The notes under the pieces: generated by a model
Told to the model about the DNA's origin: nothing
The model's database searches: none
Seen by the model: the letters and a program-made list of their open reading frames with translations, nothing else
NCBI GenBank assembly: GCA_905478765.1
Contig: CAJQJY010000001.1
Span: 1-64,000, forward strand
DNA from: an uncultured Flavobacteriales bacterium
GTDB lineage: Bacteria > Bacteroidota > Bacteroidia > Flavobacteriales > BACL11
Direction: 5' to 3'
DNA length: 64,000 bases
In this document: positions 7,801-53,381 of the stretch, one piece after another
How positions within the stretch are numbered: the first letter of the stretch is position 1
Layout of the letters: each line of letters opens with the position of its first letter
Program-made: the position numbers and the translations under genes

Positions 7801-9106
7801 TATAGTAAGTAAATTTATTGATGAAAAGTCACTTTGTAAAATAAATAACAGGCTGTTGGTGGCTATTAGTGGAGGTGCTGATAGTGTTGCTTTATTTCTT
7901 TGTTTAAAAGAACTTGGTTATGATATAGAACTTGCTCACTGTAATTTTAATTTAAGAGGTAAAGAATCAGATATTGATGAGAAATTTGTGAAAAAATTAG
8001 CAGATAAGTTTGGAGTTAGGCTTCATTTAAAATCTTTTGACACACAAAAATATGCTAACAAAAATAAAGTTTCAATTCAGATGTCTGCACGAGATTTGCG
8101 TTATAAATGGTTTAATGAAATATTAATTGATAATAATTTAAATTATATTGCAGTTGGTCATCATAAAAATGATGATGTAGAGACTTTTTTTATAAACCTA
8201 ATTAGAGGAAGTGGATTAAAAGGTTTGCTTGGAATTAAGACTAAAAACAATAATATAATCAGACCATTATTATGTGTTAGTCGTCTTGAGATTGAAGCCT
8301 ATTTATCAGCTCTTAAGCAAAGTTTTAGAGAAGATAGTTCTAATAAAGCAGTAAAATATTTAAGGAATAAAATTAGACATGAGTTGATTCCCTTATTTAC
8401 TGAAATGAACCCAAGTATTCAGAAAACAATAAGTAACGAAGTAGGAATTTTAAAAGGAGTTTTTCAAGTTTTTGGAGAACAAATTGAAAGAAAAAGAAAC
8501 GAGATTTTGAGAAATGAAAATGGTATTTTCAAATTAAAAATCACAGATTTACAAAAATTAAATCCTCTCAACATTTATTTATATGAGTTTCTAAACCCAT
8601 ATGGGTTTTCAGAAGTTAATCAAATTATTAAAGCATTAAATACTCACAGTGGAAAACAATTTTTTTCAAAAAATTATCAAATAAATATTGATCGAGAATA
8701 TATTTTAATCTCTAAATTTTCAAAAGAGTGTGTGTCGTTTGAGATTTCAGAAAATCAGCATAAGATCAGCACTCCATTTACTATGGAATTATCAAAATCA
8801 ACTGATAGAAAAGTAGCAAAAGATCGTGTTAAAGCAAAACTAGATTTTGATAAGTTGAAATTTCCATTAGTTTTAAGAAAATGGAAAAAAGGTGATAAAT
8901 TCATACCTCTTGGAATGCAAACTTTTAAAAAGTTAAGTGATTTTTTTATTGATAAAAAATATTCTCTTATTGCAAAACAACAACAATGGATATTGTGCTC
9001 TGCTGATGATATTATTTGGATTGTTGGAGATAGAATTGATGATAGATTTAAGATTACTACTCAGACAAAAAATGTGTACATTGCAGAAATTTTAAAAGAC
9101 AAATAA
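7793..9106 (+). CDS. tilS: tRNA(Ile)-lysidine synthase
   Basis: Modifies C34 of tRNA-Ile(CAU) to lysidine so that it reads AUA. The 437-residue protein has the N-type ATP pyrophosphatase P-loop SGGADS near residue 27, the HCNFNLRG strand and the GHHKNDDVET motif. C-terminal TilS domains follow, including the LRKWKKGDKF...PLGM segment. It starts inside the end of pabB and ends directly against the next gene, which indicates a tight operon. TilS is essential in bacteria that use this tRNA. Confidence 0.96.
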   Translation: MISIVSKFIDEKSLCKINNRLLVAISGGADSVALFLCLKELGYDIELAHCNFNLRGKESDIDEKFVKKLADKFGVRLHLKSFDTQKYANKNKVSIQMSARDLRYKWFNEILIDNNLNYIAVGHHKNDDVETFFINLIRGSGLKGLLGIKTKNNNIIRPLLCVSRLEIEAYLSALKQSFREDSSNKAVKYLRNKIRHELIPLFTEMNPSIQKTISNEVGILKGVFQVFGEQIERKRNEILRNENGIFKLKITDLQKLNPLNIYLYEFLNPYGFSEVNQIIKALNTHSGKQFFSKNYQINIDREYILISKFSKECVSFEISENQHKISTPFTMELSKSTDRKVAKDRVKAKLDFDKLKFPLVLRKWKKGDKFIPLGMQTFKKLSDFFIDKKYSLIAKQQQWILCSADDIIWIVGDRIDDRFKITTQTKNVYIAEILKDK

Positions 9107-9586
9107 ATGTTAGAATTTGATTTTATAGAAAAGCAGTATTTGGGGCTTAATAAAATGTCATTGACCAGAAGAATGTCTTTGGCAATTTTTTGTTTTATTG
9201 CTTATTATTGGCGTGAAAACCATGATAAAGCAGGAGAGTTGTACTTTTTTATTGGGATTGGGATTATGGTAATTTCAATGTTACTTTTTTTCATTTTACA
9301 TTTTGAAACTAAAGTAATAAATGGTAGCATAATTTTGGACGGACTTTGGACGTCTAGAAAAGTTAAGATAGACACAGCTAGTATTGTATCAGCTAAAAAA
9401 GTAAAATACAGCAAATATTTTTTGAATCGTTCCGTTTATAATTTACATTTAAAAGGAACAATTCGTTTTTATACAAGAGGAGTTGATGCTGTTGAATTGA
9501 TTGATAAAGATGACTTAATCTATCTTATTGGGAGTCAAAAAGCAGAAGAGTTAGCAAGAGTAATAAATATCAAGTTAAAGAAATAA
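9107..9586 (+). CDS. Small membrane protein of unknown function
   Basis: A 159-residue protein I do not recognise. Two hydrophobic segments (about residues 24-36 and 48-66) flank a short charged loop, giving two probable membrane helices. The C-terminal ~90 residues are beta-rich and cytosol-like, reminiscent of the bacterial PH-like domains that follow helical hairpins in YdbS-type proteins, but the match is by eye only. It starts immediately after the tilS stop and shares one base with the dsbD start (TAATG), so it is certainly part of the pabB-tilS-dsbD operon. The coupling suggests a membrane or envelope role, not a proven one. Confidence 0.75.
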   Translation: MLEFDFIEKQYLGLNKMSLTRRMSLAIFCFIAYYWRENHDKAGELYFFIGIGIMVISMLLFFILHFETKVINGSIILDGLWTSRKVKIDTASIVSAKKVKYSKYFLNRSVYNLHLKGTIRFYTRGVDAVELIDKDDLIYLIGSQKAEELARVINIKLKK

Positions 9587-11523
9587 TGAAAAGATTATTA
9601 GTCGTATTATTTACATTGATGAGTGTAGTCGTTTCTGCACAAATCTTTAATCCAGTAGAGTGGGAATTCTCTCAAAAACAACTTTCTGATACTGAAATTG
9701 AATTGCAATTTAAAGCTAGTATTGAAGATCATTGGCATTTATATTCTCAAGACATAGAGGCTGATGGGCCTGTGCCGACTGAATTTACTTTTACAACAAC
9801 TGATGGTTTTGAGTTAGTTGGTAATATGCAAGAGGGTGAGCCGTTAGAAGAATTCGATCCAAACTTTGATATGATATTGAAGTACTTTGGGAATGAAGCT
9901 ATTTTTACTCAGAAAGTAAAAGTTATTTCTGCTACTGACTTTAAATTGGATGGAAATGTTTATTTTATGGTTTGTGATGAGGCACAATGTTTGCCGCCAG
10001 AAGAAGTAGAATTCTCTTTTGATATAAAAGGAGTTGATGGAGGAGAGCCTGTGTCTGGCACTAAAGATTCTTCTGATGAAAAAGAAGTAAAAAGCATGTG
10101 GGCTTTATTCTTTATTGCATTTTTTAGTGGTTTTGCAGCACTGCTAACACCTTGTGTTTTTCCTATGATTCCTATGACAGTTTCGTTTTTTACTAAGCAA
10201 TCAAAAACAAAAGCCAAAGGAATTGCAAATGCTATTATTTACGGACTTTCAATCATAGTTATATATGTTGCTTTAGGGGTTGGAGTTTCATCAATTTTTG
10301 GAGCAGATTCCTTAAATAATATGGCAACTAATGTGTATTTTAATATTGGGTTCTTTCTATTATTAATAATTTTTGGAGCCTCTTTTTTAGGTGCTTTTGA
10401 AATTCAATTACCTGCATCTTGGACAAATAAATCTGTAGAGGCAGAAGGGAAAGGTGGCTTGATTGGTATCTTTTTTATGGCATTTACCCTAGCATTGGTT
10501 TCATTCTCATGTACTGGTCCTATTGTTGGGACATTATTAGTTGAAGCTGCTACAGGAGGGTATATGGGGCCAATAATTGGTATGTTAGGTTTTTCATTAG
10601 CTATAGCATTGCCATTTGCATTATTTGCAGCTTTCCCAGCATGGTTAAATTCTTTGCCACAATCAGGTGGATGGTTAAATTCGGTCAAAGTAACCTTAGG
10701 ATTTCTAGAGATTGCTTTAGCTTTTAAATTCTTATCTAATGCTGATTTAGTAATGCAAACACATTGGTTGGAGCGTGAGTTATTTATTGCAATTTGGATT
10801 ATGATTTTCGGGCTGTTGACTATGTACCTTTTAGGGTTCTTAAAATTTGCTCATGATTCGGATTTAAAACACATTTCAGTAAGTCGTTTGAGTGTTGCAA
10901 TTTTAACAGGGACTTTAACTTTATACATGATTCCAGGTTTATGGGGAGCACCTTTAAAAATTATTAATGCATTTCCGCCTCCAATGCAATATAGCGAATC
11001 GCCATTTGGAGTAGGAAATTCTCAAGGAGGTGGGGTTGTTTCAAATGTTCATGAGGAAGATGGGCAGCATTTAGGCCCTCAAGGAATTATGGTTTTCCAT
11101 GATTATGATGAAGGGATGTCTCATGCTAAAAAAGTTAGTTTACCAGTTGTTGTTGATTTTACGGGTTGGGCTTGCGTAAATTGCAGAAAAATGGAAGAAC
11201 AAGTTTGGTCGGATGCAAATGTAAAAAGTATGCTTTCTACTGATGTTGTGCTTATTTCACTTCATGTTGATGAAAGAGAAGAGCTTCCTGAAAGTGATAA
11301 ATATGAAACTACTTTAGCAGGGAAAAATAAAAAAGTAAAAACTACTGGTGATAAATGGATGGTGTTGCAAGCCAATACCTATAATACTAACTCTCAACCT
11401 TATTATGTATTCTTAAATAATGATGGAGAACAAATGGTTGAAGCGGCTAATTACCAAGATTACGGTACAGTTGAACTATTTACAGATTGGTTAAATAGAG
11501 GGCTTAAAGAATTTAATAGATAA
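9586..11523 (+). CDS. dsbD: Thiol:disulfide interchange protein DsbD
   Basis: Carries electrons from cytosolic thioredoxin across the inner membrane to periplasmic reductases. All three modules are present in 645 residues: a signal peptide (1-18); an N-terminal alpha domain with a redox Cys pair in CDEAQC; a multi-helix beta domain (~165-455) with the paired cysteines at 190 (TPCVFP) and 309 (FSCTGP); and a C-terminal thioredoxin domain with Cys530-Val-Asn-Cys533. It is fused to the upstream small membrane gene by TAATG and followed 11 bp later by the M42 peptidase. Confidence 0.95.
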   Translation: MKRLLVVLFTLMSVVVSAQIFNPVEWEFSQKQLSDTEIELQFKASIEDHWHLYSQDIEADGPVPTEFTFTTTDGFELVGNMQEGEPLEEFDPNFDMILKYFGNEAIFTQKVKVISATDFKLDGNVYFMVCDEAQCLPPEEVEFSFDIKGVDGGEPVSGTKDSSDEKEVKSMWALFFIAFFSGFAALLTPCVFPMIPMTVSFFTKQSKTKAKGIANAIIYGLSIIVIYVALGVGVSSIFGADSLNNMATNVYFNIGFFLLLIIFGASFLGAFEIQLPASWTNKSVEAEGKGGLIGIFFMAFTLALVSFSCTGPIVGTLLVEAATGGYMGPIIGMLGFSLAIALPFALFAAFPAWLNSLPQSGGWLNSVKVTLGFLEIALAFKFLSNADLVMQTHWLERELFIAIWIMIFGLLTMYLLGFLKFAHDSDLKHISVSRLSVAILTGTLTLYMIPGLWGAPLKIINAFPPPMQYSESPFGVGNSQGGGVVSNVHEEDGQHLGPQGIMVFHDYDEGMSHAKKVSLPVVVDFTGWACVNCRKMEEQVWSDANVKSMLSTDVVLISLHVDEREELPESDKYETTLAGKNKKVKTTGDKWMVLQANTYNTNSQPYYVFLNNDGEQMVEAANYQDYGTVELFTDWLNRGLKEFNR

Positions 11524-11534
11524 ATAAAAGAACT

Positions 11535-12623
11535 ATGGCAAAAAAGAAAATTATTACTAAAAAGTCAGAGGATTTTTTAGAAAAATATTTAAATAATCCA
11601 TCACCTACAGGCTTTGAAAGTGGTGGCCAGAAAATGTGGTTAGATTATATTTCACCATATATTGATGAGCATTTTGTAGATACTTATGGTACAGTAGTTG
11701 GGGTAATAAATCCTGAAGCAAAATATAAAGTTGTAATTGAGGCACATGCTGATGAAATTTCATGGTTTGTGCATTACATTACTAAAGAGGGATATATTTA
11801 TTTAAGAAGAAATGGCGGTTCTGATCATCAGATAGCTCCCTCTAAAAGAGTAAACATTCATACTAAAAAAGGTATGGTTAAAGCTGTATTTGGTTGGCCA
11901 GCTATCCATACCAGAACTGCAGGAACTGAAAAATCCCCAAAGCTTGATAATATCTTTTTGGATTGTGGTTGTGCATCAAAAGAAGAAGTGGAGGAATTAG
12001 GAATTCATGTTGGTTGTGTGGTTACTTATGAAGATGAGTTCATGATTTTAAATAAGAATTTTTATGTAGGCAGGGCTTTGGATAATCGTATTGGTGGGTT
12101 TATGATTGCTGAGGTGGCACGTTTACTAAAAGAAAATAAAGTAAAATTACCATTCGGATTATACATTACAAACTCTGTACAGGAAGAGGTTGGTTTGAAA
12201 GGGGCGCAAATGATTGTGGATACGATAAGGCCTGATGTGGCGATTGTAACTGATGTGTGCCATGACACGGGCACACCAATGATAAATAAAATTAAGCAAG
12301 GTGATACTAAATGTGGTGCAGGTCCGGTATTGACGTATGGTCCGGCAGTGCAAAACAATTTGTTAGAACTAATTATTACTGCAGCTGAAAAGAATAAAAT
12401 TCCTTTCCAAAGAGCGGCAGCTTCTCGTGCTACAGGTACTGACACTGATGCTTTTGCTTATTCAACTGGTGGGGTGGCTTCTTCATTAATATCACTTGCA
12501 CTAAGGTATATGCACACTACAGTTGAGAGTGTACATAAGAATGATGTGGAAAATGTAATCCGATTGATTTATGAATCGCTACAGAAGATTAAAAATAATC
12601 ATGATTTTAGATATTTGAAATAA
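11535..12623 (+). CDS. M42-family metallopeptidase (glutamyl aminopeptidase/endoglucanase family)
   Basis: A 362-residue cytosolic co-catalytic di-metal aminopeptidase. Expected metal and catalytic residues are visible: His in EAHADEI, Asp in RALDNR, the Glu pair in QEEVG, Asp in VTDVCHD, and the late His in RYMHTTVE. There is no signal peptide. The family forms large tetrahedral shells in some organisms and trims peptides; the exact specificity cannot be read here. It is the last gene of the operon, followed by a strong terminator at 12629-12653. Confidence 0.9.
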   Translation: MAKKKIITKKSEDFLEKYLNNPSPTGFESGGQKMWLDYISPYIDEHFVDTYGTVVGVINPEAKYKVVIEAHADEISWFVHYITKEGYIYLRRNGGSDHQIAPSKRVNIHTKKGMVKAVFGWPAIHTRTAGTEKSPKLDNIFLDCGCASKEEVEELGIHVGCVVTYEDEFMILNKNFYVGRALDNRIGGFMIAEVARLLKENKVKLPFGLYITNSVQEEVGLKGAQMIVDTIRPDVAIVTDVCHDTGTPMINKIKQGDTKCGAGPVLTYGPAVQNNLLELIITAAEKNKIPFQRAAASRATGTDTDAFAYSTGGVASSLISLALRYMHTTVESVHKNDVENVIRLIYESLQKIKNNHDFRYLK

Positions 12624-12628
12624 AACTT

Positions 12629-12653
12629 AAGGAGCTGAAAAGCTCCTTTTTTT
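12629..12653 (+). terminator. Rho-independent terminator after the M42 peptidase
   Basis: Stem AAGGAGCT/AGCTCCTT with a GAAA tetraloop and a run of T. It begins six bases after the stop codon. Confidence 0.92.
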
Positions 12654-12701
12654 ATAACCTTATTTTTATTATTTTTGAGCAACTAATTTAAAACATAAAA
12701 A

Positions 12702-13625
12702 ATGGATACAAATCTTATTTTCGGCAACATAGTTTATATTGTTATTGCTATTTTCTTATTGAAAGGTTCGATATATATGGTGAAACAAAAAACATCAGTT
12801 GTTATTGAGCGTTTAGGTAAATTTCAAAAAGTATCTCGAGCAGGTCTGCATTTTAAAATCCCCTTAATTGATAGCATTGCAGGTAATGTAAACCTTAGAG
12901 TAAGAGAATTACCTGTCGAGGTGGAAACTAAAACTAAGGATGATGTATTTGTTAAGGTGGTGGTTTCTGTTCAGTTTTTTGTGGTGGATACTAGTGAGGG
13001 CATTGCAAACTCATTTTATAAATTAAATAATGCAGAACATCAAATACAATCTTATGTATTTGATTCTATTCGTTCGGAAGTACCTATGATGGAACTAGAT
13101 GCAGTATTTGCTGAGAAAGATAAAATTGCGATATCGGTTAAATCTGAACTTTCCGAAACTATGAAACAATTTGGTTTCGATTTTACAAAAGCGTTAGTTA
13201 CGGATATTGATCCTGATGCTAAGGTTAAGCAATCTATGAATGAGATAAATGCTGCTAAGCGTATGAAAGAAGCTGCAAAAGAAGAAGCTGCAGCAGCCAA
13301 AATTAGAGTTGTAGCAGCAGCTGAGGCTGATATGGAAAGTAAGCGATTAGCAGGGGAAGGAATAGCCTTACAAAGGATTGCAATTGCTAATGGATTGAAG
13401 GAGTCAGTTGCTGAGGTGAAGTTAGCTATGGAGGACCATGTTACCAGCCAAGATGTAATGAATATGCTCTTTATGACGCAACATTATGAAACGGTTGCTA
13501 AGCTTTCTGAAAATAATACGAGCACAATATTTATGCCGTATTCTCCTGATAATGTAGGTGACTTGCAAATGCAAATTCAAAGCAGTTTGTTGGCAGTTGA
13601 TGAAATGAAAAAAAAGAATAAATAG
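12702..13625 (+). CDS. SPFH/band-7 (stomatin-like) membrane protein
   Basis: A 307-residue protein with one N-terminal membrane helix (~8-24). A band-7 domain follows, with the family features VVIERLGKF, GLHFKIP, LRVRELPVEVETKTKDD and the DIDPD turn. An Ala/Glu-rich coiled-coil region (EAAAAKIRVVAAAEADME) comes next. These proteins build oligomeric cages or platforms in membranes and often regulate proteases or lipid microdomains. No NfeD partner is adjacent, so its partner is unknown. It sits alone between a terminator and the CIA30 gene. A TATTTTTG element at 12670-12677 may be its -7 box. Confidence 0.92.
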   Translation: MDTNLIFGNIVYIVIAIFLLKGSIYMVKQKTSVVIERLGKFQKVSRAGLHFKIPLIDSIAGNVNLRVRELPVEVETKTKDDVFVKVVVSVQFFVVDTSEGIANSFYKLNNAEHQIQSYVFDSIRSEVPMMELDAVFAEKDKIAISVKSELSETMKQFGFDFTKALVTDIDPDAKVKQSMNEINAAKRMKEAAKEEAAAAKIRVVAAAEADMESKRLAGEGIALQRIAIANGLKESVAEVKLAMEDHVTSQDVMNMLFMTQHYETVAKLSENNTSTIFMPYSPDNVGDLQMQIQSSLLAVDEMKKKNK

Positions 13626-41895: not shown

Positions 41896-41969
41896 ATGCT
41901 TTAAATCTGCCATTTTATTAAGTATAAAAAAAATACCTTAATATTGTGGCTGAATTAAATCCTATTACT

Positions 41970-43757
41970 ATGAAAAGATTCTTTACAATTTTATTTTTTA
42001 ATTTGTTTATTGTAGTTTTTATAAATGCACAATGTTCTATTGATTATAGTTATTTTCCAATTGGCGAAAATTATGGTTTGTTTCCTGATACTTTGCCTGT
42101 TGGGGTTGTTGGGCAAACCTATAATCAAGATTTAACTTTTTACCTGCCTGTTGATACTATTTTTGGTGGTGTTTTTGTAGAGTTTACAGATTTTCACATT
42201 ACATCAATTTCACTTCCACTAGGAATTACTTGGGAATGTAATAATAGTTCAAATGCGTGTCATTACGATCCTTTAGTTAGTCAATACGGCTGTGTAAATG
42301 TTTCTGGTACTCCTTTAGTTGTTGGAAATTATGATGTTGAGGTTAATTTAGTAGCTACTCATAGTTTATCTGCTTTATTGGGTACAGAGAGTATTTCTTT
42401 CTCACTTCCAATGACAATAATTAATGATACATCTACATCTAATAACGCTGGTTTTGCAATGACAAATTCATCAGGTTGCGCTCCAATAACAGTTAGTTTT
42501 ACAAATAATAATACTAGTATGTTATCTTATTTTTGGGATTTTGGAAATGGGAACACTAGCACTATGCAAAATCCTGTGGATCAGTTATATTCACAGGCTG
42601 GGCAGTATATTGTGCAGTATTCAGCAATGCAAAGTAATCCTACATATTTTTTAGAAAATATTGAGGTATTTTCAGGTACTTGTACAGATAATTTCCTAAT
42701 TGGTGATGTAGATTTGTTGTATGATATTACAACTTCAAGTGGAGTTGTGCAGTCTGTACCCCCTTCTAATGCGATAACTCAGGCTTTTCCTTTAATGATT
42801 AATTTATCTAATCCATTGCAGTTAACGGGTCAAGATGTTACAATTGAAGTATGGGATGATGATGGTTGGATAAGCGGATTAGAATACTGTGGTGGCGTTA
42901 CTTTTACACCACCACAGCAAGCAGGAACATTTTCTGCAAATGGAGGTGGTTTATCTATAAACTATACTATCATAGAGTTACCTGCAAATACAGTAATTAC
43001 AGCAGATACGATAAATGTCTATGGATTTCCTACTGCACCTGTACTGGTTTACGATACTTTAAATAACTTGATTTACACAACTTCAGATTCTACTGCCATG
43101 CAATGGTATTATTATAATAGCCCAATTCCTGGGGCTAATGACACCTTTCTTGAGCCAACAGCTTCTGGATTATACTCTTTAGTAGTTGTAAATGAGAATG
43201 GTTGTATAAATAATTCTTTAGAGGTTTTGATTGTAATATGCGACTCTTCTTATCAGCCAATGTTGGGTGATAATGGATCTACAGCATGGATGTTAGATTC
43301 AGCCTTATATTCTGATCTGCAATGGTATAGTGTTATTACTGGAATTATTAATGGCGCAAATAACTCTTTTTTCCCAGCTACTGAAAACGGGGAGTACTAT
43401 ATTGTTGCAACTGATACATTTGGTTGTTCATACATGTCAGCTCCAGTATATCTAAGCCCTTTTGTAAGTTCAGAAGTAATATTTACATCTGAGATTGTAA
43501 AGGTTGGTCCCAACCCTATTAAAAATGGACTTTCTTTGAATATCTATATAGAAGCCTCTGCGTTATCACCAGTTGTATTTGTTTTGATAGATTTCTATGG
43601 AAGAGAGGTTGTTCGTAAGGTTGTTAATTACCGCTGTTATCCTTATCAACTTGAAGCAAATGAGATTAGTAAGTTATCCAATGGAGTATATTATTTAGAT
43701 ATCTCATTTGATGATAATAAGATAAGAAAGAAGGTTGTAAAGTTGGGAGCTAATTAA
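41970..43757 (+). CDS. Secreted PKD-domain protein with T9SS sorting domain
   Basis: 595 residues from ATG at 41970 (MKRFFTILF, a signal peptide ending INAQ); the GTG eight codons upstream is rejected. After an N-terminal ~150-residue domain comes a PKD domain (~165-230: GCAPITVSFTNNN, then YFWDFGNGN). Two Ig-like modules follow with W-Y-x-N-x-x-I-x-G-A-N and G-x-Y-x-V-V-x-N-x-x-G-C patterns. The last ~85 residues are a T9SS sorting domain (KVGPNPIKNG, then DFYGREV, LSNGVYYL, KKVVKL). It is a surface or released protein of unknown target. It converges on the Rieske-like gene with an 8-bp overlap. Confidence 0.88.
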   Translation: MKRFFTILFFNLFIVVFINAQCSIDYSYFPIGENYGLFPDTLPVGVVGQTYNQDLTFYLPVDTIFGGVFVEFTDFHITSISLPLGITWECNNSSNACHYDPLVSQYGCVNVSGTPLVVGNYDVEVNLVATHSLSALLGTESISFSLPMTIINDTSTSNNAGFAMTNSSGCAPITVSFTNNNTSMLSYFWDFGNGNTSTMQNPVDQLYSQAGQYIVQYSAMQSNPTYFLENIEVFSGTCTDNFLIGDVDLLYDITTSSGVVQSVPPSNAITQAFPLMINLSNPLQLTGQDVTIEVWDDDGWISGLEYCGGVTFTPPQQAGTFSANGGGLSINYTIIELPANTVITADTINVYGFPTAPVLVYDTLNNLIYTTSDSTAMQWYYYNSPIPGANDTFLEPTASGLYSLVVVNENGCINNSLEVLIVICDSSYQPMLGDNGSTAWMLDSALYSDLQWYSVITGIINGANNSFFPATENGEYYIVATDTFGCSYMSAPVYLSPFVSSEVIFTSEIVKVGPNPIKNGLSLNIYIEASALSPVVFVLIDFYGREVVRKVVNYRCYPYQLEANEISKLSNGVYYLDISFDDNKIRKKVVKLGAN

Positions 43758-44166
43758 AGATGTGCAGAACATTATTATCATTCAAACTCCAATTGTAATT
43801 TTTTAATGACAAAAGAGCTGGTGCATTTATAGCTTCACCTGTGTTGCTTATTAAGAATGCTGAGGTGCAACAACCGCAAAATGCAATTCCAGAATTTACT
43901 GAATCAATAACTGAACAAGATAGTGATGGTTCGTAACTGCAGTTTCTGTCATATACTTTATAGTCATTGCCAACTCCATGATATATAATTATTCCATCCA
44001 CACCACCTTCAATAAAAATTGCAGTTCCTGATATTGAAATTTCACTATATTCGGGTAAGCTTAAATTCACATACTCATTTACATAAACTTCTTGTATATA
44101 ATCATTTTTTGTGTTACAGCTGAGCACTAAAATATTCATTGTTAGAATGTAAATAAGCTTTTTCAT
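43750..44166 (-). CDS. Rieske-fold-like lipoprotein with Cys-rich site
   Basis: A 138-residue protein with a lipoprotein signal (LVLSC at residues 13-17). The body follows the Rieske ferredoxin plan: a beta-rich front; a first cluster loop reading YDRNCSYEP and SCSV; a second reading FCGCCTSAF; and then G-E-A-I-x-A-P-A-L-x-S-L-K-x-Y. Canonical Rieske proteins use C-x-H and C-x2-H; no His is present in the loops here. The Cys residues could bind a different cluster or metal, or form disulfides in the periplasm. Similar His-less proteins occur in Bacteroidetes, and the function is unknown. Confidence 0.7.
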   Translation of the reverse strand: MKKLIYILTMNILVLSCNTKNDYIQEVYVNEYVNLSLPEYSEISISGTAIFIEGGVDGIIIYHGVGNDYKVYDRNCSYEPSLSCSVIDSVNSGIAFCGCCTSAFLISNTGEAINAPALLSLKNYNWSLNDNNVLHIFN

Positions 44167-44253: not shown

Positions 44254-47200
44254 ATGTCGAGAAAAATTTATTTAATAGTTGCATTTGCATTAACAACCAC
44301 TTTTGCTTTTGCTCAAACAGGATCACTTAAGGGAGTAATTACTGATGCAATGACTGGGGAGCCGGTTCCTTTTGCTAATATCGTTGCGGAAAAAGGCGGA
44401 AATCAAATTGGAGGTACTACTACTGATTTTGATGGAAACTATACAATTAAACCTTTAGTTCCAGGTAATTATACAGTAAAAGCAACTTTTGTAGGTTATG
44501 GAGCTGTTGAAATTACAGGAGTAATTGTTTCGTCTAACAAGATTACAAAGCAAGATGTTAAACTGCAAGAAGGTATTGCTATTGGTGAGGTGAAAATTAT
44601 TGCTTACAAGAAGCCCTTACTTGATCAAGATAACTTATCAGGTGAGACAAAAACTGCTGAGGAAATTGTGGCCTTACCTACAAGAAATGTAAGTTCTGTA
44701 GCCGCAACAACTGCAGGTATTTACCAAAAAGATGAGGGTGAAGGTGTTAATGTAAGAGGATCTCGTTCTGATGCTACAGAATATTATATTGATGGAATTA
44801 AAGTGAGAGGTGCTATCGGAGTTCCTACTTCTGGTATTGAGCAGATTACTGTAATTACTGGCGGTGTTCCTGCGCAATATGGTGATGCTACAGGAGGGAT
44901 TATTTCTGTTACTACAAAGGGTCCTTCTAATAAAACATTTGGAGGTTTTGAGTATGAGTCTTCATCATTATTTGATAGTTATAATTACAATTTATTAGGT
45001 TTTTCTTTGTCTGGACCTTTATTAAAAAAGAGAAATACTGATGGCTCTAAAGGGAGTTCAATTTTAGGGTATTTTATTTCAGGTGAGCTTAGAAGTGTTG
45101 ATGATACTGATCCATCTGCAGTTGGAATGTGGAAAGTTAAGGATGATGTTTTAGCTGATTTAAAATTAAATCCTTTTATATTAGCTCCTAATGCAAATGC
45201 AGGTTTATTAAGCTCTTCTGAGTTTTTAAATGAGAATGACTTTGAATTGGTTGATGCTAAACAAAATACAAATGATAAAAGAATAAATGTATCTGGTAAA
45301 ATTGATTTTAAACCATCTAATAATACTTTTTTATCCTTAGGTGGATCTTTATATGCTAGAAAAAGTAATGATTTTAGCTATTGGAGATCAATGTACTCAT
45401 CGGATGATAATCGAAATTCTTCACAAACTACTTATCGTTTGTTTGGTAAGTTGACTCAAAAGTTTGGTTCTGAAGAATCAAATTCAGAAGAAAGTGCATC
45501 AGTTATTAAAAATGCATTCTTTACAATACAAGGAGATTACACAAATAATAAGTATACTTATGGTGATGAAAAACATGGAGAGAATATTTTCAACTATGGT
45601 TATGTTGGAAATTTCAATACATATAAAGCACCTATTTATCAAAATGGTACTGCAGTTGATTCTACAAGCGGTATCATTTATAGTGGGCAAACTCTATCTG
45701 GTTGGGCTGATACTTTATATACTTTTGAGGCTAGTGATATTAACCCTGGTTTAGTAAATTATACTTCTGCTTATTATGATATGTTTTCTGAATATGGCGG
45801 GAACTCTTTCATGTCTCCAATTATGGGTCTATTTGGTGTTGATGCTTCTAATGATGGCGTGATTAGAACTGCAGCAGATTTGCAAGGACAAGGTTTAATG
45901 AATGGAGATTCGCCTGCATCAGCATATTCTTTATTTGGAAGTAATGCTTCTTGGTATGGGTATTCTATTAAACAAGAAAATACACAGTCAACTTTTAAAG
46001 CTTCAGGATCTGCTGATATTAAGTCTCATGAATTCTCATTCGGATTTGAATTTGAACAAAGGAAAGATTATTATTGGCAATTTAATGCATTTAAATCTGT
46101 ATGGACTTTAATGAATCAATTGGCAAATAAACATATTTTAGAGCGTGACTTAGCAAACCCTAATCCTGTATTTGATGCAAACGGAACTTTCCAAGACACT
46201 ATTAATTATGATAGATTGTTTGTTGCTGATGAGCAATCTGATTTTGATAGAAACTTAAGAGATGCATTAGGATTAGATCCTAATGGAACTGATTTTATTG
46301 ATGTTGATTCTTATGATCCTTCAACTTACTCATTAAGTATGTTTAGTGAAGATGAGTTATTAAATAATGGTTCATCTTATGCAGTTTATTATGGTTACGA
46401 TATTTATGGAAACAAAAATAATGGAGATGCTACTTTAGCCAACTTCTTTAAAGAAGAGGGCAGTAAAAGATTAATTGCTCCTTTTAATCCAATTTATACT
46501 GCAGGATACATTCAAGATAAATTTGCAATTGACGATTTAATTTTCAATGTAGGTGTTAGGGTAGATCGTTATGATGCCAATCAAAAAGTATTAAAAGATC
46601 AGCACCTACTATATAGTGCGTATACGGCTGGCGCTAATATTGATTTAATTAATTCTACAGCAATCCCTTCAAATATTGGTAATGACTATGTTGTATATGT
46701 TGATGATGTTGATAATCCTTCAGCAATTGTAGGGTATAGAAATAATGATGGTGATACTTGGTATAATGCTGAAGGGTTAGAAATTTCTGATCCATCTTTA
46801 TTAGCTGAAGCTGCTGGCGGTAAAATTGCTCCTTATTTGAAAGATGCAGAATCAGCTGCTCAAGGAATCGTAAATGTTAATGAAGTGTTTGAAGATTATA
46901 CTCCTGAGGTAGTGTTTATGCCTAGGATTGCATTCTCTTTCCCTATTTCTGATGAAGCTCAATTCTTTGCGCATTATGACGTATTAACACAAAGACCTCC
47001 TACAGGCAATAGATTAGAGCCAGTTGATTATTTATTTATGGCTGACAGAGTTGGTGAAAGATTAAACAACCCTAACTTGAAGCCAGAAAAAAATGTTGAT
47101 TACGAGTTAGGGTTTGCAAAAACATTATCTTTAAAATCGGCATTAAAAATATCTGCATTTTATAAAGAGTTAAGAGATATGGTTCAGGTAACTAGTGTGC

Positions 47201-47964
47201 TTTCTGCTTATCCTGCACAATATTATACTTATGGTAATATTGACTTTAGTACAGTAAAAGGTTTGTCTGTGAATTATGATTTAAGAAGAACAAATAATGT
47301 TCAGATGACTGCTAACTATACTTTGCAATTTGCTGATGGGACAGGTTCATCTGCAACTTCAGGTGCAAATTTAGCAGAGACTGGTCAGCCTAACTTAAGA
47401 ACATTAACTCCACTTGATTATGATCAAAGACATGCGGTATCTGCATCTGTTGATTATCATTATGGAGAAGGAAAGGATTATAATGGTCCTTTATTGTTTG
47501 GAGCAAAAGTATTTGAGAATGCAGGTGCGAATGTAATGTTCTCTGCAGGATCAGGAACTCCTTACTCTAAGCAATCTAACATTACACAAGAAGCAGCAAG
47601 TGGAATTAATGACAGATCAACACTAGAAGGGAGTTTAAATGGATCTCGTTTACCGTGGCAGTTCCGTATTAATGCTAAAGTTAATAAAGAATTTGAAATT
47701 AAGTGGAGTGATAAAAAGAGTTCACACTTGAATGTATACGTTCAAGTTCAAAACTTATTAGATGCGAAAAATATAATGGAGGTTTATCGTGCAACAGGTA
47801 ACCCTAATGATGATGGATATTTAACTTCATCAGCAGCACAAAATAGTATTGATGCGAAAAATGACCCTGAATCTTTCAGATACTTATATTCATTGGCCGT
47901 AAACAATCCTTCGCATTATAGTTTACCTAGAATGTGGAGAGCAGGTATAAGCTTCCAATTTTAA
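44254..47964 (+). CDS. Large TonB-dependent receptor with carboxypeptidase-like regulatory domain
   Basis: 1236 residues: signal peptide ending FAFAQ; a CarboxypepD_reg-like beta-sandwich (~22-105, GVITDAMTGEPVPFANIVA and TDFDGNYTIKPL); a plug domain with VNVRGSRSDATEYYIDGIKV and GGVPAQYGDATGGIISVTT; and a very long barrel ending with MWRAGISFQF. Architecture is SusC/Oar-like, but no SusD gene follows. The next genes are a 1411-residue secreted protein (36 bp away) and a PorV-like barrel, suggesting a functional unit on the outer membrane. Cargo is unknown. Confidence 0.92.
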   Translation: MSRKIYLIVAFALTTTFAFAQTGSLKGVITDAMTGEPVPFANIVAEKGGNQIGGTTTDFDGNYTIKPLVPGNYTVKATFVGYGAVEITGVIVSSNKITKQDVKLQEGIAIGEVKIIAYKKPLLDQDNLSGETKTAEEIVALPTRNVSSVAATTAGIYQKDEGEGVNVRGSRSDATEYYIDGIKVRGAIGVPTSGIEQITVITGGVPAQYGDATGGIISVTTKGPSNKTFGGFEYESSSLFDSYNYNLLGFSLSGPLLKKRNTDGSKGSSILGYFISGELRSVDDTDPSAVGMWKVKDDVLADLKLNPFILAPNANAGLLSSSEFLNENDFELVDAKQNTNDKRINVSGKIDFKPSNNTFLSLGGSLYARKSNDFSYWRSMYSSDDNRNSSQTTYRLFGKLTQKFGSEESNSEESASVIKNAFFTIQGDYTNNKYTYGDEKHGENIFNYGYVGNFNTYKAPIYQNGTAVDSTSGIIYSGQTLSGWADTLYTFEASDINPGLVNYTSAYYDMFSEYGGNSFMSPIMGLFGVDASNDGVIRTAADLQGQGLMNGDSPASAYSLFGSNASWYGYSIKQENTQSTFKASGSADIKSHEFSFGFEFEQRKDYYWQFNAFKSVWTLMNQLANKHILERDLANPNPVFDANGTFQDTINYDRLFVADEQSDFDRNLRDALGLDPNGTDFIDVDSYDPSTYSLSMFSEDELLNNGSSYAVYYGYDIYGNKNNGDATLANFFKEEGSKRLIAPFNPIYTAGYIQDKFAIDDLIFNVGVRVDRYDANQKVLKDQHLLYSAYTAGANIDLINSTAIPSNIGNDYVVYVDDVDNPSAIVGYRNNDGDTWYNAEGLEISDPSLLAEAAGGKIAPYLKDAESAAQGIVNVNEVFEDYTPEVVFMPRIAFSFPISDEAQFFAHYDVLTQRPPTGNRLEPVDYLFMADRVGERLNNPNLKPEKNVDYELGFAKTLSLKSALKISAFYKELRDMVQVTSVLSAYPAQYYTYGNIDFSTVKGLSVNYDLRRTNNVQMTANYTLQFADGTGSSATSGANLAETGQPNLRTLTPLDYDQRHAVSASVDYHYGEGKDYNGPLLFGAKVFENAGANVMFSAGSGTPYSKQSNITQEAASGINDRSTLEGSLNGSRLPWQFRINAKVNKEFEIKWSDKKSSHLNVYVQVQNLLDAKNIMEVYRATGNPNDDGYLTSSAAQNSIDAKNDPESFRYLYSLAVNNPSHYSLPRMWRAGISFQF

Positions 47965-47999
47965 TAAAATAACTAGTAAAAAAGAAAAATAGATTTTTT

Positions 48000-50900
48000 A
48001 TGTATAATAAAATTAAACAAATAGTAACATTATCATTTGCATTCTATAGTATTGCATTGATGGCTAAAGAGAATGTTCCAAATCCTGGAGTAACATCTGT
48101 AGTTAATACAAGGGTAGCTGCTGGTTGTAATCCTTCAAAATCTAAAACTGACTTGGATGTAAATAATGTGAGAACTACCATTATGGGTGGAGGAGATATG
48201 TGGTGGGATTTAGCTGACGCACAATATGAAATTCCTAAAGGAAGTAAAAAGAATTCAATGTTTGCAGGCGCACTTTGGATTGGTGGTGTTGATGATGGGG
48301 GGCAATTGAAGGTTGCTGCAATGACTTACCGCCAAGATGGTAATGATTTTTGGCCAGGACCTTTAAATGTAAATAATGCAACAATATCAGCTGATGAGTG
48401 CGTAACCTGGGATAAACATTTCAAATTAGATCGTTCAGAAGTTGAGGAATATGTTGCTCGTTTTGCTACTGACCCAACTTATGTTATTCCTAATTCAATC
48501 TTAGAATGGCCAGCACATGGTAATGAGGCATTGGGACAAGATGAGTTTTTAGCGCCGTTCTATGATGCAAACGGAAATGATCTCTATGAGCCGTATGATG
48601 GTGATTATCCTGATTATAATATTACTGGAACAAATGATAATGCTAGATTGTTTGGTGATCAAACATTATTCTGGATTTTTAATGATAAAGGAAATATTCA
48701 TACAGAAACTGAAGCTGAACCTTTAGGTTTAGAGATTCATGCACAAGCATTTGGATTTACTGCTGATAATGAAGTGAATGATATGACTTTTTACAATTAT
48801 AAAGTAATTAACCGTTCAACATTACCTTTAAATGATACTTATTTTGGGCAATGGGTAGATCCTGATTTAGGGTATTATTTAGATGATTATGTAGGTTGTG
48901 ATGTAAATCTTGGATTAGGTATTTGTTATAATGGAGACGCTGAAGATGAAGGGGCTGATGGTTACGGATTTAATCCACCTGCTATTGGAGTAGACTTCTT
49001 TCAAGGACCAATAGCCGATCCAAATGATGGTATTGATAACGATAGAGATGGATTAATAGATGAAGGGTATGATGGTTTAGACAATAATAATAATGGTTTA
49101 ATTGATGACCCACAAGAGCGTGAGCAAATTATTATGTCAAAATTTGTTTATTATAATAATGACTTTACTACTATGGGTAATCCTGAAAGTGGAACAGATA
49201 TTTATAACTACTTAAGAGGTATTTGGAAAGATAATGTTCCTATGACTTATGGTGGAGATGGGCATGGTGGGGGATCAGGCTCAACAACTGACGAATGTAA
49301 CTTTATGTTCCCTGGAACTTCTGATGCATCTTTTGCTGGTACAGAGTGGACAGAGGTAACTGCTGGAAATGTGCCGGCTGATAGAAGATTCTTACAATCA
49401 GCTGGGGCCTTTACTTTACAACCCGGTGCTGTAAATGTTATTACAACTGGTGTCGTATGGGCAAGAGCTAAATCTGGTGGGCAAACTGCATCAGTGCAGT
49501 TACTTAAAATTTATGATAGAGAAGCTCAAGCTTTATTTGATAATAATTTTGATATTCTTAACGGACCAGATGCGCCTGATGTAACAGTTCGTGAGTTAGA
49601 TAAGGAATTAATTTTTACATTATCAAATGGTGCTACATCAAATAATATTGATGAATCTTACTCTGAGAAAGATCCTTATATTACTAAGCCAGAAAATCTT
49701 GCAAACTATCCAAATTATGAGTTCCAAGGTTACTTAGTTTATCAATTGGAGAGTGCAACTGTTTCAGTTACTGATTTAGATGATCCTGATAAAGCAAGAC
49801 TTATATTCAGAAGTGATGTAAATGATGATGTAACAGGAATTGTTAATCAATACTTAGATCCTATTTTAGCAGTATATACTCCAATTGAAGAAGTTTCATC
49901 TATATTGAGTTCTGGTGTAATAGGCTCTGTAGATGAGGGAGTTCAGTTTTCTTTCCAAGTTACTGATGATAGATTTGCTTTAGGAAATACAAGATTGGTA
50001 AATCATAAAACTTATTACTTTATGTCATTATCATACGGTTACAATCGCGCTGAAGAGAATGCTGACCCTTATGATGTAAATGCAGCTGAATATGATGGTA
50101 GAAACCAGCCTTATATTTCAGGAAGAAGAAATATTAAAGTTTATTCTGCAATCCCTCATGTTAATAATCCTGAAAATGGAGGTACAACTTTAAATGCATC
50201 TTATGGTGATGGAGTTGAACTTACAAGAAAAGAAGGTCAAGGAAATGGAGGAATGGCTTTAGATTTTACAAAGCAAACTGTTGAAGATATTTTAACTTCT
50301 GAGGATCATAGAAGTTTAAATCCAACATATGTAGCTGGACAAGGACCAATAACTATTACGGTTGTTGATCCTGTAAAAGTACCGCAAGGAGACTTTACTT
50401 TCAAATTAATGGATCCTATCTTTAATGTTAATGCTATTATCTCTTATGGAAGATGGGAATTGATTGATAATATAACAGGAAATATAAAAGCTTCAGCTGA
50501 TCAAGATATTGAGTTAGGTTCTGAGCAATACATCTCTCAATTAGGATTGAATGTAAAAGTAAAACAAACACAAAACCCTGGTGCTGATCCAACTAATATT
50601 GATGATAACGGTTTAATTTCTGGTACAATAGAATTCGAAAATCCTAATGACAGATGGTTAAGCGGGGTTGCCGATAGAGATGACGAGAACGGATTCTTTA
50701 ATATATGGGGCTTTAATTGGATTAGATCAGGTTCTTATACGAATGAGACTATTAATCAGTTGAGTGATTATAATATGACTGATGATCCAAATGGTGTATT
50801 TGAAGGAGTTGTAATGCAATCAAATGTTGCATCAGGACAATTTGGAAGTTTTGAATGGACAGGAGGAACATGGGCCCCTTATCGTTTTGCATCTAACTTT

Positions 50901-52235
50901 AACGATGGTCCTGGTATTAGTAATTCAATTACTAACTTAGCAAAACTTACGAATTTAAATTCAGTTGATATTGTATTCACTGATGAGAAATCCAAATGGA
51001 GTAGAGTGTGTGTTGTTGAAGCTCAAGATGATGAAACATTATCAATCGGTAATCAAAAGAAAATGGGATTAAGACAGTCAGTTTCTGTTGGTAAAGATGG
51101 TCTCCCAGATGGAATGTTAGATGCGAATGGTGATTCTATAAAAGGGATGGGTTGGTTTCCTGGTTATGCTCTTGATATTGAAACAGGCGAAAGGTTAAAT
51201 ATTATCTTTTCTGAAGATTCATGGCAAACTTCTGAGAATGGAAATGATATGAAATGGAATCCTACATCTACTTTATTAACTCCAGGTGATTTTCCTCAAT
51301 ATGATTCTCAGAATAATGAGTTTTTAGGAGGTAATTATTTATTAGGGGGAAAACACTTTATTTATGTTGTTAAAGGAGAATCATGGGTAAAAGGTTCTGA
51401 GGATTATATGACAGACACTGTTAGTTCAGATTTTTCACCTAATTATGATGAAAGTGCATGGATTTATAGTAAATTACTAAATGATAATAATGGCACTGGG
51501 AAATGGGCTGTATTCAAAAATGTGACTTGGGTTGGAGCTCCTTTGTTAGCACCAGGAAGAGATATGAATTTAGATAATAAGGTAGCTGTTAAATTAAGAG
51601 TAACTAAACCTTATAATGCTTACGAAACTGTTACCGAAGATAAATTCTTTGATAGAAATATGGATTTAAATTTAGGAACAACTTATGTTGTCGCTTATGA
51701 AAATTCAACTTCTACATGGGGCGGTAAAACTGTTACTTATGATGGTGTTGATTATGAAGTTGGAGAGTCATTTGTAGCTACAGCTACACTTAATTTTAGT
51801 GGTTCAGCAAAAGCAAGAGCTATTGAAGCAACTGCACTTAATAGTTTTAATCCTACTTATAGTTTCAATACTAATAATATTGTTGCGGTAACTGGTGATA
51901 ATGATGTTGCTAAAGATGCCTTAGATATTATTAATATTGTTCCCAATCCTTATTATGGTTATTCTTCATATGAAGTTAATCAATTAGATAATAGAGTAAA
52001 AATTACAAACTTACCAAGAAGAGCAACTATAAAGATATTTAGTGTAAGTGGAGCTGAAGTTCGCACTTTAAGTAAGGATAATGGGATGACTTCAATAGAT
52101 TGGGATTTAAAAAATAACTTTGGGATTCCTATTTCTAGTGGTTTATATATTTTGCATATAAATGTTCCTGGAGTTGGAGAAAAAATAATTAAATGGTATG
52201 GAGCTTTAAGACCAATTGATTTAGATACATTCTAA
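48000..52235 (+). CDS. 1411-residue secreted surface protein with T9SS/FlgD-like C-terminal domain
   Basis: A signal peptide (~1-22) leads a very long beta-rich protein without a recognised enzyme domain. Around residues 335-375 there is an Asp/Asn-rich calcium-binding-like segment (DGIDNDRDGLIDEG, then DGLDNNNNGLIDDP) of the thrombospondin-3/EF-hand-loop type. Trp- and Gly-rich strands fill the middle. The C-terminal ~95 residues resemble T9SS/FlgD Ig-like sorting domains: VPNPYYGYSSYE, TNLPRRATIKIFSVSG, SGLYILHI, ending DLDTF. It is sandwiched between the TonB receptor and the PorV-like gene with 35-36-bp gaps, and almost surely cotranscribed. Function unknown. Confidence 0.85.
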   Translation: MYNKIKQIVTLSFAFYSIALMAKENVPNPGVTSVVNTRVAAGCNPSKSKTDLDVNNVRTTIMGGGDMWWDLADAQYEIPKGSKKNSMFAGALWIGGVDDGGQLKVAAMTYRQDGNDFWPGPLNVNNATISADECVTWDKHFKLDRSEVEEYVARFATDPTYVIPNSILEWPAHGNEALGQDEFLAPFYDANGNDLYEPYDGDYPDYNITGTNDNARLFGDQTLFWIFNDKGNIHTETEAEPLGLEIHAQAFGFTADNEVNDMTFYNYKVINRSTLPLNDTYFGQWVDPDLGYYLDDYVGCDVNLGLGICYNGDAEDEGADGYGFNPPAIGVDFFQGPIADPNDGIDNDRDGLIDEGYDGLDNNNNGLIDDPQEREQIIMSKFVYYNNDFTTMGNPESGTDIYNYLRGIWKDNVPMTYGGDGHGGGSGSTTDECNFMFPGTSDASFAGTEWTEVTAGNVPADRRFLQSAGAFTLQPGAVNVITTGVVWARAKSGGQTASVQLLKIYDREAQALFDNNFDILNGPDAPDVTVRELDKELIFTLSNGATSNNIDESYSEKDPYITKPENLANYPNYEFQGYLVYQLESATVSVTDLDDPDKARLIFRSDVNDDVTGIVNQYLDPILAVYTPIEEVSSILSSGVIGSVDEGVQFSFQVTDDRFALGNTRLVNHKTYYFMSLSYGYNRAEENADPYDVNAAEYDGRNQPYISGRRNIKVYSAIPHVNNPENGGTTLNASYGDGVELTRKEGQGNGGMALDFTKQTVEDILTSEDHRSLNPTYVAGQGPITITVVDPVKVPQGDFTFKLMDPIFNVNAIISYGRWELIDNITGNIKASADQDIELGSEQYISQLGLNVKVKQTQNPGADPTNIDDNGLISGTIEFENPNDRWLSGVADRDDENGFFNIWGFNWIRSGSYTNETINQLSDYNMTDDPNGVFEGVVMQSNVASGQFGSFEWTGGTWAPYRFASNFNDGPGISNSITNLAKLTNLNSVDIVFTDEKSKWSRVCVVEAQDDETLSIGNQKKMGLRQSVSVGKDGLPDGMLDANGDSIKGMGWFPGYALDIETGERLNIIFSEDSWQTSENGNDMKWNPTSTLLTPGDFPQYDSQNNEFLGGNYLLGGKHFIYVVKGESWVKGSEDYMTDTVSSDFSPNYDESAWIYSKLLNDNNGTGKWAVFKNVTWVGAPLLAPGRDMNLDNKVAVKLRVTKPYNAYETVTEDKFFDRNMDLNLGTTYVVAYENSTSTWGGKTVTYDGVDYEVGESFVATATLNFSGSAKARAIEATALNSFNPTYSFNTNNIVAVTGDNDVAKDALDIINIVPNPYYGYSSYEVNQLDNRVKITNLPRRATIKIFSVSGAEVRTLSKDNGMTSIDWDLKNNFGIPISSGLYILHINVPGVGEKIIKWYGALRPIDLDTF

Positions 52236-52271
52236 TAAATAAAGTAATAGACTATAATAAATATTATAAAT

Positions 52272-53333
52272 ATGAAACAAATTAATAACTGGATAAAAGC
52301 TATAGCAATAATTGCATTAATGCTTCCTTTTTCTAATGCCTTTGCAGGTAATCCCCAAAGAGCAGGACAAGCAGGCGCTTCAGAATTATTGATCAATCCT
52401 TGGGCTAGAACTTCTGGTTGGGGAGGAGCAAATGTTGCTGGAGTTAGAGGATTAGAGGGTATATTCTCAAATGTTGCCGGACTTGCTTTTACTGAAAAAA
52501 CAGAACTGATTTTTAGTCAAACGCAATGGTTAAAATATGGAGATGAGGCTGTAAGTAATATTAGTGCTTTTGGTTTTTCTCAGAAGGTTGGAGAGTCAGG
52601 GGTTTTAGGTTTTTCTGTAATGAGTATGGATTTTGGAGATATTGAAATTACTACTGTAGATTTACCTGATGGTGGTATTGGTACGTATTCACCTTCATTT
52701 ATGAATATTTCTCTTTCTTATGCTAAGATTTTTTCTAATAGCATATATGGGGGTATGACAGTTAAAATGATTTCAGAACAAATTTCAAATGTAGGAGCTA
52801 ATGGTGTAGCTTTAGATGCAGGGATTCAGTATGTAACTGGTTCAGAAGATAATTTTAAATTTGGTATTGCGTTAAAAAATGTAGGACCAAGAATGTCTTT
52901 CTCTGGTGATGGACTTTCATTTAGAGGTATAGTTGGTGATGCAGACGATTATAAAATGACTGTTGAGCAAAGATCATCAGATTTGGAATTACCGGCATTA
53001 TTAAATATTGGACTTTCTTATGATGTTAATTTTATTCAACATAGAATTACTGGTGCTGGTACATTTACTTCTAACTCTTTTCAAAAAGATCAATACCGTT
53101 TAGGCGGTGAGTACTCTTACAATGAAATGTTTATGGTAAGGTTGGGTTACACTTATGAGGATGGGATTAGAACACCATCAACAAGAACAACTGCCTTAAG
53201 AGGACCTACAGCTGGCTTTACAGTTGAGTTGCCAATGGGAGATAATGATTCAACTTTCGGTTTAGATTATTCTTACCGTCATACTGATCCTTTCCAAGGT
53301 TCGCACACTATTGGTGCAAGGATTAATTTATAA
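52272..53333 (+). CDS. PorV/PorQ-family outer-membrane protein
   Basis: 353 residues with a signal peptide ending AFA. The mature N-terminus AGQAGASELLINPWARTSGWGGANVA and then SNVAGLAF follows the PorV/PorQ pattern (A-G-x-x-G-A...A-R-x-x-x-x-G-G-A...N-P-A-G-L). Amphipathic strands continue to the end (SHTIGARINL), giving a FadL-like barrel. PorV escorts and anchors T9SS cargo at the outer membrane; this paralogue lies next to a T9SS-type cargo gene and may be dedicated to it (inference). The canonical PorV/PorQ copies should be elsewhere in the genome. A terminator follows. Confidence 0.85.
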   Translation: MKQINNWIKAIAIIALMLPFSNAFAGNPQRAGQAGASELLINPWARTSGWGGANVAGVRGLEGIFSNVAGLAFTEKTELIFSQTQWLKYGDEAVSNISAFGFSQKVGESGVLGFSVMSMDFGDIEITTVDLPDGGIGTYSPSFMNISLSYAKIFSNSIYGGMTVKMISEQISNVGANGVALDAGIQYVTGSEDNFKFGIALKNVGPRMSFSGDGLSFRGIVGDADDYKMTVEQRSSDLELPALLNIGLSYDVNFIQHRITGAGTFTSNSFQKDQYRLGGEYSYNEMFMVRLGYTYEDGIRTPSTRTTALRGPTAGFTVELPMGDNDSTFGLDYSYRHTDPFQGSHTIGARINL

Positions 53334-53357
53334 AATAAAAACAAACATATTATGTTC

Positions 53358-53381
53358 AAAAAGGAAGGTGACTTCCTTTTT
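53358..53381 (+). terminator. Rho-independent terminator after the PorV-like gene
   Basis: Stem AAAAAGGAAG/CTTCCTTTTT with a GTGA loop, 24 bases past the stop codon. It closes the three-gene surface cassette. Confidence 0.9.

Follow-up and report, generated by a model that had tools for sequence, protein, structure and literature searches.

In this study we analysed a window of 64,000 nucleotides (positions 1 to 64,000 of contig CAJQJY010000001.1) from an uncultured bacterium of the Flavobacteriales. Three genes in this window, at 44254-53381, encode a TonB-dependent receptor, a giant secreted protein with a type IX secretion system (T9SS) C-terminal domain (CTD), hereafter the cargo, and an outer-membrane barrel of the PorV/PorQ family. 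Our results indicate that this TonB-cargo-barrel unit is phylum-wide in Bacteroidota, is neither rare nor a local oddity, and recurs throughout the phylum far beyond chance. About 80% of the Bacteroidia genomes sampled carry it, usually at a single fixed place in the chromosome, and it has multiplied in deep-branching relatives. Export of the cargo and its pairing with the barrel are well supported. We give an even chance to the further proposal that the cassette builds one outer-membrane complex, in which the T9SS-exported cargo would be held by its own barrel and would take part in surface uptake with the TonB receptor.

Conservation of the TonB-cargo-barrel unit

The giant cargo was encoded in 31 of 40 relatives. 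Among order-level relatives gene order and strand were kept: the receptor gene lay upstream in all flanked loci and the barrel gene came next wherever a downstream flank was present, at cargo identities down to 37%. Named genome loci yielded complete triples in the same order and on the same strand in 66 of 80 cases; the gaps had medians of 24.5 and 27.5 bases. Across the phylum the cargo profile matched in 139 of 296 genomes, in some at the CTD alone; 40 wide loci were taken from these genomes, and 38 of these 40 deep-branching loci were complete triples with order and strand kept. Every full cassette contained a TonB receptor that had both a Plug and a barrel domain. A preliminary description of the locus had raised the prospect, to the detriment of its own reading, that homologues of the three genes might usually lie apart; when this was looked at, the units proved mostly intact.

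Co-occurrence was scored across 346 Bacteroidia genomes with a completeness of 90% or more. The cargo was found in 276 and the cassette barrel in 270 (both in 270, cargo only in 6, barrel only in 0, neither in 70). Neither gene occurred in any listed genome of a well-sampled family of the same order (f3), which is probably Flavobacteriaceae. Bacteroidia loci usually continue past the barrel with greA (55 of 80) and a gene for a HIT protein (58 of 80), and we therefore regard the Bacteroidia cassette as a vertically kept chromosomal site.

At ten loci, a cargo bearing the C-terminal tail described below lay away from any cassette barrel. Nine of these ten genomes hold a cassette barrel elsewhere, in most cases after another cargo copy and followed by greA. 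We rejected the idea that such 'stand-alone' cargos are signs of a broken unit, since nine of the ten are extra copies in genomes that also carry a canonical locus or a cassette barrel. It looks as though the tail serves as a ticket for one barrel able to serve more than one cargo. Second stand-alone cargo copies with the same tail were seen at loci L109, L116, L117, L135, L143, L154, L163 and L180, with the cargo near positions 9000-13000 where flanks allow; in all of these genomes except one, a cassette barrel is present at another site.

In one complete genome of a deep-branching lineage (G067), 14 further PorV-family regions were read. Nine are complete triples, one is a porU-porV pair, and one holds a receptor and a barrel without cargo. 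Adding the genome's window-like triple to the nine gives ten paralogous triples, and among these the receptor, cargo and barrel distances are correlated (Mantel r 0.65-0.88, p <= 7e-4). Because all ten share one genome, species history does not explain this co-diversification. At L253:1679-5687, in the many-cassette complete genome, a TonB receptor is directly followed by a cassette-type barrel with no cargo between.

Downstream of the deep-lineage cassettes, GWxTD and tetratricopeptide repeat (TPR) proteins are the most frequent partners, joined by a few multihaem cytochromes; at L063-L102, GWxTD-domain proteins account for 11 of 46 downstream neighbours, and some multihaem cytochrome-like proteins are present too. 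Glycan-degradation genes are absent from the top neighbour families of these cassettes, and on this ground we ruled out the cassette as a polysaccharide locus.

In the window itself, the three open reading frames (ORFs) lie on the same strand, separated by 35 bases (receptor to cargo) and 36 bases (cargo to barrel); the coordinates and gap lengths of the preliminary description hold exactly to the base. Its single terminator after all three genes was also recovered as a hairpin at 53358-53381 with a perfect 10-bp stem, folding at -18 kcal/mol (z -4.4), which is not among the sites listed by a simple terminator scan. ORF 1 matched CarboxypepD_reg, Plug and TonB barrel models, in line with the carboxypeptidase-like domain assigned to the receptor before. 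At E<=1 no SusC model matched the receptor, and no SusD domain was matched either, as expected from the earlier remark that no SusD lipoprotein follows it. The features of the locus are as follows.

44254..47964, + strand: TonB-dependent receptor, 1236 amino acids (aa), with signal peptide, CarboxypepD_reg, Plug and beta-barrel; no SusC-model match
48000..52235, + strand: giant secreted cargo, 1411 aa
48069..50174, + strand: N-terminal half of the cargo, residues 24-725, beta-rich; fold match weak, no PDB sequence relative
49026..49121, + strand: calcium-loop-like segment of the cargo, DGIDNDRDGLIDEGYDGLDNNNNGLIDDPQER; first loop conserved, second mostly local
51921..52232, + strand: T9SS type A-like CTD of the cargo, residues 1308-1411; nearest solved relatives PorZ and PorU
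52209..52232, + strand: 8-residue C-terminal extension of the cargo, RPIDLDTF; lacking in this genome's ordinary type A domains
52272..53333, + strand: PorV/PorQ-family outer-membrane barrel, 353 aa, in a clade apart from PorV and PorQ
53358..53381, + strand: intrinsic-terminator-like hairpin after the three genes, with a 10-bp stem, GTGA loop and T-rich end

The cargo and its barrel

The only domain match in the cargo was a weak T9SS tail. The Por_Secre_tail model TIGR04183 scored 16.9 bits in one search and 23.5 bits in another, with a cut-off of 23. AlphaFold models were made of the two cargo halves separately (mean pLDDT 82 and 87), and a Foldseek search assigned the last ~110 residues to the T9SS type A fold (PorZ 5m11, E 7e-5), with further matches to the CTDs of NucA (TM 0.69) and RemZ (TM 0.65 to target). 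The T9SS-type C-terminus proposed earlier is accordingly weak by sequence score and clear by fold. No type B domain was detected with PF13585 or TIGR04131. When the sequence profile of the CTD was compared with the PDB, PorZ was the best relative (E 2e-4) and PorU the next (E 0.05); RemZ, NucA and other ordinary cargos were not among the relatives found in this way. The CTD of PorU is reported in a review to stay bound to PorV and that of PorZ to PorQ, with the suggestion that cognate PorV-like barrels may shield the CTD from cleavage (PMC10202324). The nearness of the cargo CTD to PorZ and PorU hints at a retained CTD and is only suggestive.

In the substrate-bound translocon a conserved CTD lysine touches PorV loops (PMC10994853), and by alignment K1398 of the cargo is likely its counterpart. 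The cargo runs 13 residues past K1398 (in the window, KWYGALRPIDLDTF). Of the ordinary type A domains in its own genome, 28 were read; these end 4-6 residues past the conserved lysine, and cassette paralogues that lack the tail end about 5 residues past it, in GKFAIVK. Relative to these paralogues the tail is an 8-residue extension (RPIDLDTF) of nearly constant length: almost every Bacteroidia cargo shows the 13-residue spacing, as do 37 of the 40 deep-lineage cargos that were compared (the cargo at L102 is one residue shorter). R1404 and D1407 are each kept in 79 of 80 Bacteroidia sequences, and the C-terminal F (F1411) in 66. Type A cargos stop shortly past this lysine, unlike the cassette cargo. 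To judge from sequence, a conserved tail beyond the usual stop suggests binding that is tighter or of another kind.

The barrel encoded by the third gene scored 145 bits with NF033709 (cut-off 90) and so belongs to the PorV/PorQ family, as originally called. It stays far below the equivalog cut-offs for PorV (NF033710, 63.5 of 250 bits), PorQ (NF033711, 70.5 of 220 bits) and PorV2 (NF052325, 32.8 of 325 bits), and the sole solved sequence relative found for it was PorV 6h3i (E 9e-18). In a tree of 104 barrels, PorV (28 sequences) and PorQ (17) each form one group (100/100); a third branch (99/93), apart from both, holds the cassette barrels and six further sequences. Every readable cargo-tail pair of the tail-bearing cargos falls within one barrel clade of 42 members (100/100); the barrels of tail-less cargos lie outside that clade. 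The barrels at L257, L268, L271 and L273, one of them from the order's best-sampled family, form a small PorV-family group of their own (100/100) outside the PorV, PorQ and cassette clades, and are possibly the PorV2 of NCBIfam.

The remainder of the cargo is well conserved, with ~50% identity of the ectodomain across orders. The calcium-loop segment noted earlier was found again: its loop at residues 343-355, DGIDNDRDGLIDE, is kept in relatives, and the second loop that follows is missing from most. For the N-terminal half there was no sequence relative among PDB structures, and Foldseek matched it partially, at low TM, to the sandwich portion of GH116/GH94-type enzymes (E 6e-6). The model of this half contains few helices and shows nothing that points to an (alpha/alpha)6 catalytic domain. 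Since the match is partial only, it was not used as evidence for enzyme activity. Shorter proteins of ~450-830 aa resemble the cargo in its N-terminal part only, over residues ~45-520 (G018:C8:12062-13285, G022:C71:11439-12692, and in genomes G031, G036 and G037), which indicates that this module is used outside the cassette too.

Proposed surface complex and its alternatives

The host genome (1.6 Mb, 20 contigs, 98.6% complete) encodes the SprA translocon, PorU adjoining PorV, and PorQ adjoining lon; SprA was found in all cassette genomes tested. Three PorV-family barrels are present, namely PorV, PorQ and the cassette barrel. The barrel on contig C11 was considered as half of a PorZ-PorQ pair and this was discarded, as its neighbour is Lon and the barrel itself is PorQ. 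The genome encodes about 45 further C-termini of type A without a private carrier. Since the host has PorU, PorV and PorQ alongside these ~45 C-termini, a private barrel is not required for ordinary export.

We propose that all three proteins of the cassette would exit the cytoplasm by Sec, and that the receptor and barrel would be inserted into the outer membrane. The cargo would cross the outer membrane via SprA, and its CTD would quite probably pass to the cargo's own barrel of the PorV family and not to the general PorV. The CTD would then remain uncut and the barrel would hold on to it, like PorQ with PorZ and PorV with PorU, a step that we somewhat favour. The 8-residue extension would act as both ticket and lock for the cassette barrel clade. 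The ectodomain would stay on the surface beside the TonB receptor, allowing SusCD-like capture and uptake with a partner that arrives via T9SS and not as a lipoprotein; uptake by the cargo with the receptor is credible, at just under an even chance.

Tentatively, then, the cassettes may represent a phylum-wide class of T9SS cargo and carrier with its own C-terminal ticket, a type A-like domain plus the 8-residue tail, that builds TonB-energised surface uptake complexes in most sampled Bacteroidia lineages and not in the sampled Flavobacteriaceae-like genomes. If so, TonB uptake and T9SS secretion, two fields so far studied apart, would be joined, and PorV-family barrels would have diversified into dedicated anchors. 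A short C-terminal signature would tell anchored from released cargos, and a third route, beside lipoprotein export and BAM, would give a TonB receptor its surface partner.

Several observations weigh against this reading. There is no ligand hint: the fold match of the N-terminal half is weak, and the deep-lineage neighbours are GWxTD and TPR proteins. The match between tail and barrel clade reflects one evolutionary split and hence one event, so it is consistent with co-evolution and is not independent proof of it. Because PorZ, the best relative of the CTD, has no extension, the tail is not the cause of retention in general, and because tail-less cassettes exist, it is not needed for the cassette as such. 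Adjacency of the receptor in Bacteroidia could in part be frozen ancestral gene order. Several genomes have two tail-bearing cargos and one cassette barrel; the preliminary description had proposed a dedicated barrel with one giant cargo, of which the barrel travelling with the cargo stands and the 'one' does not.

The alternative that survives best, and which we nevertheless consider unlikely, is that the barrel is a specialised secretion carrier only. PorU would cut the CTD, the cargo would be released or joined to lipopolysaccharide (LPS), and the receptor would be linked through shared substrate or regulation. PorV acts in this way for ordinary cargos (PMC10202324; PMC10994853), PorU is encoded in the host genome, and the cargo CTD is of the type A fold. 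However, the ~45 other host cargos have no private carrier, and the CTD profile is closest to PorZ and PorU, two proteins reported uncut. The binding suggested by the tail also argues against simple release.

Rather less probable is a role for the receptor in secretion or assembly instead of uptake, with PorF-like energising or gating of cargo delivery. The TonB receptor PG0534/PorF has been reported as necessary for gingipain secretion, and its Cytophaga hutchinsonii homologue CHU_1606 co-purified with PorV (PMC8564354). By analogy, this co-purification offers a precedent for a TonB receptor in contact with PorV, and so for the preferred complex as well, and the distance correlations in G067 tie the cassette receptor to the cargo as closely as they tie the barrel. 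Against a PorF-like role, T9SS export is driven by its own motor (PMC10994853) and the ~45 other cargos need no receptor alongside.

It is improbable that the cargo is instead a structural or sticky protein of a surface coat, held by the barrel, with the receptor as anchor or sensor. A large, all-beta, calcium-loop-bearing ectodomain with no recognisable enzyme domain would suit such a role, yet its conservation across orders is unlike that of fast-evolving adhesins, and a receptor with Plug and barrel domains accompanies every full cassette. Finally, the absence of any functional link, with the genes held together by inertia of an ancient gene order beside greA and HIT, is already disfavoured and very improbable: the block cargo-barrel-greA-HIT is kept whole in Bacteroidia, so that adjacency there counts as few events, but deep-lineage triples adjoin other genes and have multiplied as triples within one genome, and cargo and barrel are lost together.

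Known systems and neighbouring genes

We place the cassette among the T9SS cargo/carrier pairs, as a variant of its own; the combined TonB machine, if shown, would be new in kind. It resembles PorZ-PorQ and PorU-PorV in tying a large protein with a type A-like CTD to a single PorV/PorQ-family barrel, and its CTD is nearest to PorZ, then PorU, by sequence profile and fold. It differs from both in the barrel clade, the ectodomain, the 8-residue extension and the TonB receptor within the unit. The type B pairs of SprB with SprF/PorP also cluster a cargo gene with a cognate carrier barrel, which is thought to anchor the cargo (PMC10202324). In contrast to these, the cassette has no type B model match, its barrel is of the PorV/PorQ family, and a TonB receptor is added.

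As in SusCD systems, the TonB receptor gene lies directly upstream of the gene for a large surface partner, whose surface location in the cassette is predicted. Unlike SusD, the cassette partner has a T9SS CTD and no SusD domain; the receptor lacks a SusC-model match, a third gene encodes the barrel, and no sugar-degrading genes lie nearby. PorF (PG0534/CHU_1606), set beside the cassette receptor by description, is likewise a TonB receptor tied physically and functionally to PorV and secretion, but it is reported in the secretion of several cargos and is not part of a private cargo/barrel unit. A link with the Bacteroidota BAM complex (BamG/BamH/BamP) was ruled out, as the components differ (PMC12611786, PMC12578637). 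The preliminary description knew of no characterised example, and we too found no published description of the TonB-cargo-barrel unit in the open literature, a search that left aside subscription papers and preprints.

Directly upstream of the region, a 603-aa protein that has a PKD domain and ends in an ordinary type A C-terminus of the T9SS is encoded at 41946-43757 of the window. Between it and the cassette lies a 138-aa lipoprotein-like ORF (43750-44166, - strand). In 28 of 80 loci a cluster of small ORFs resembling this one precedes the cassette and is encoded on the opposite strand.

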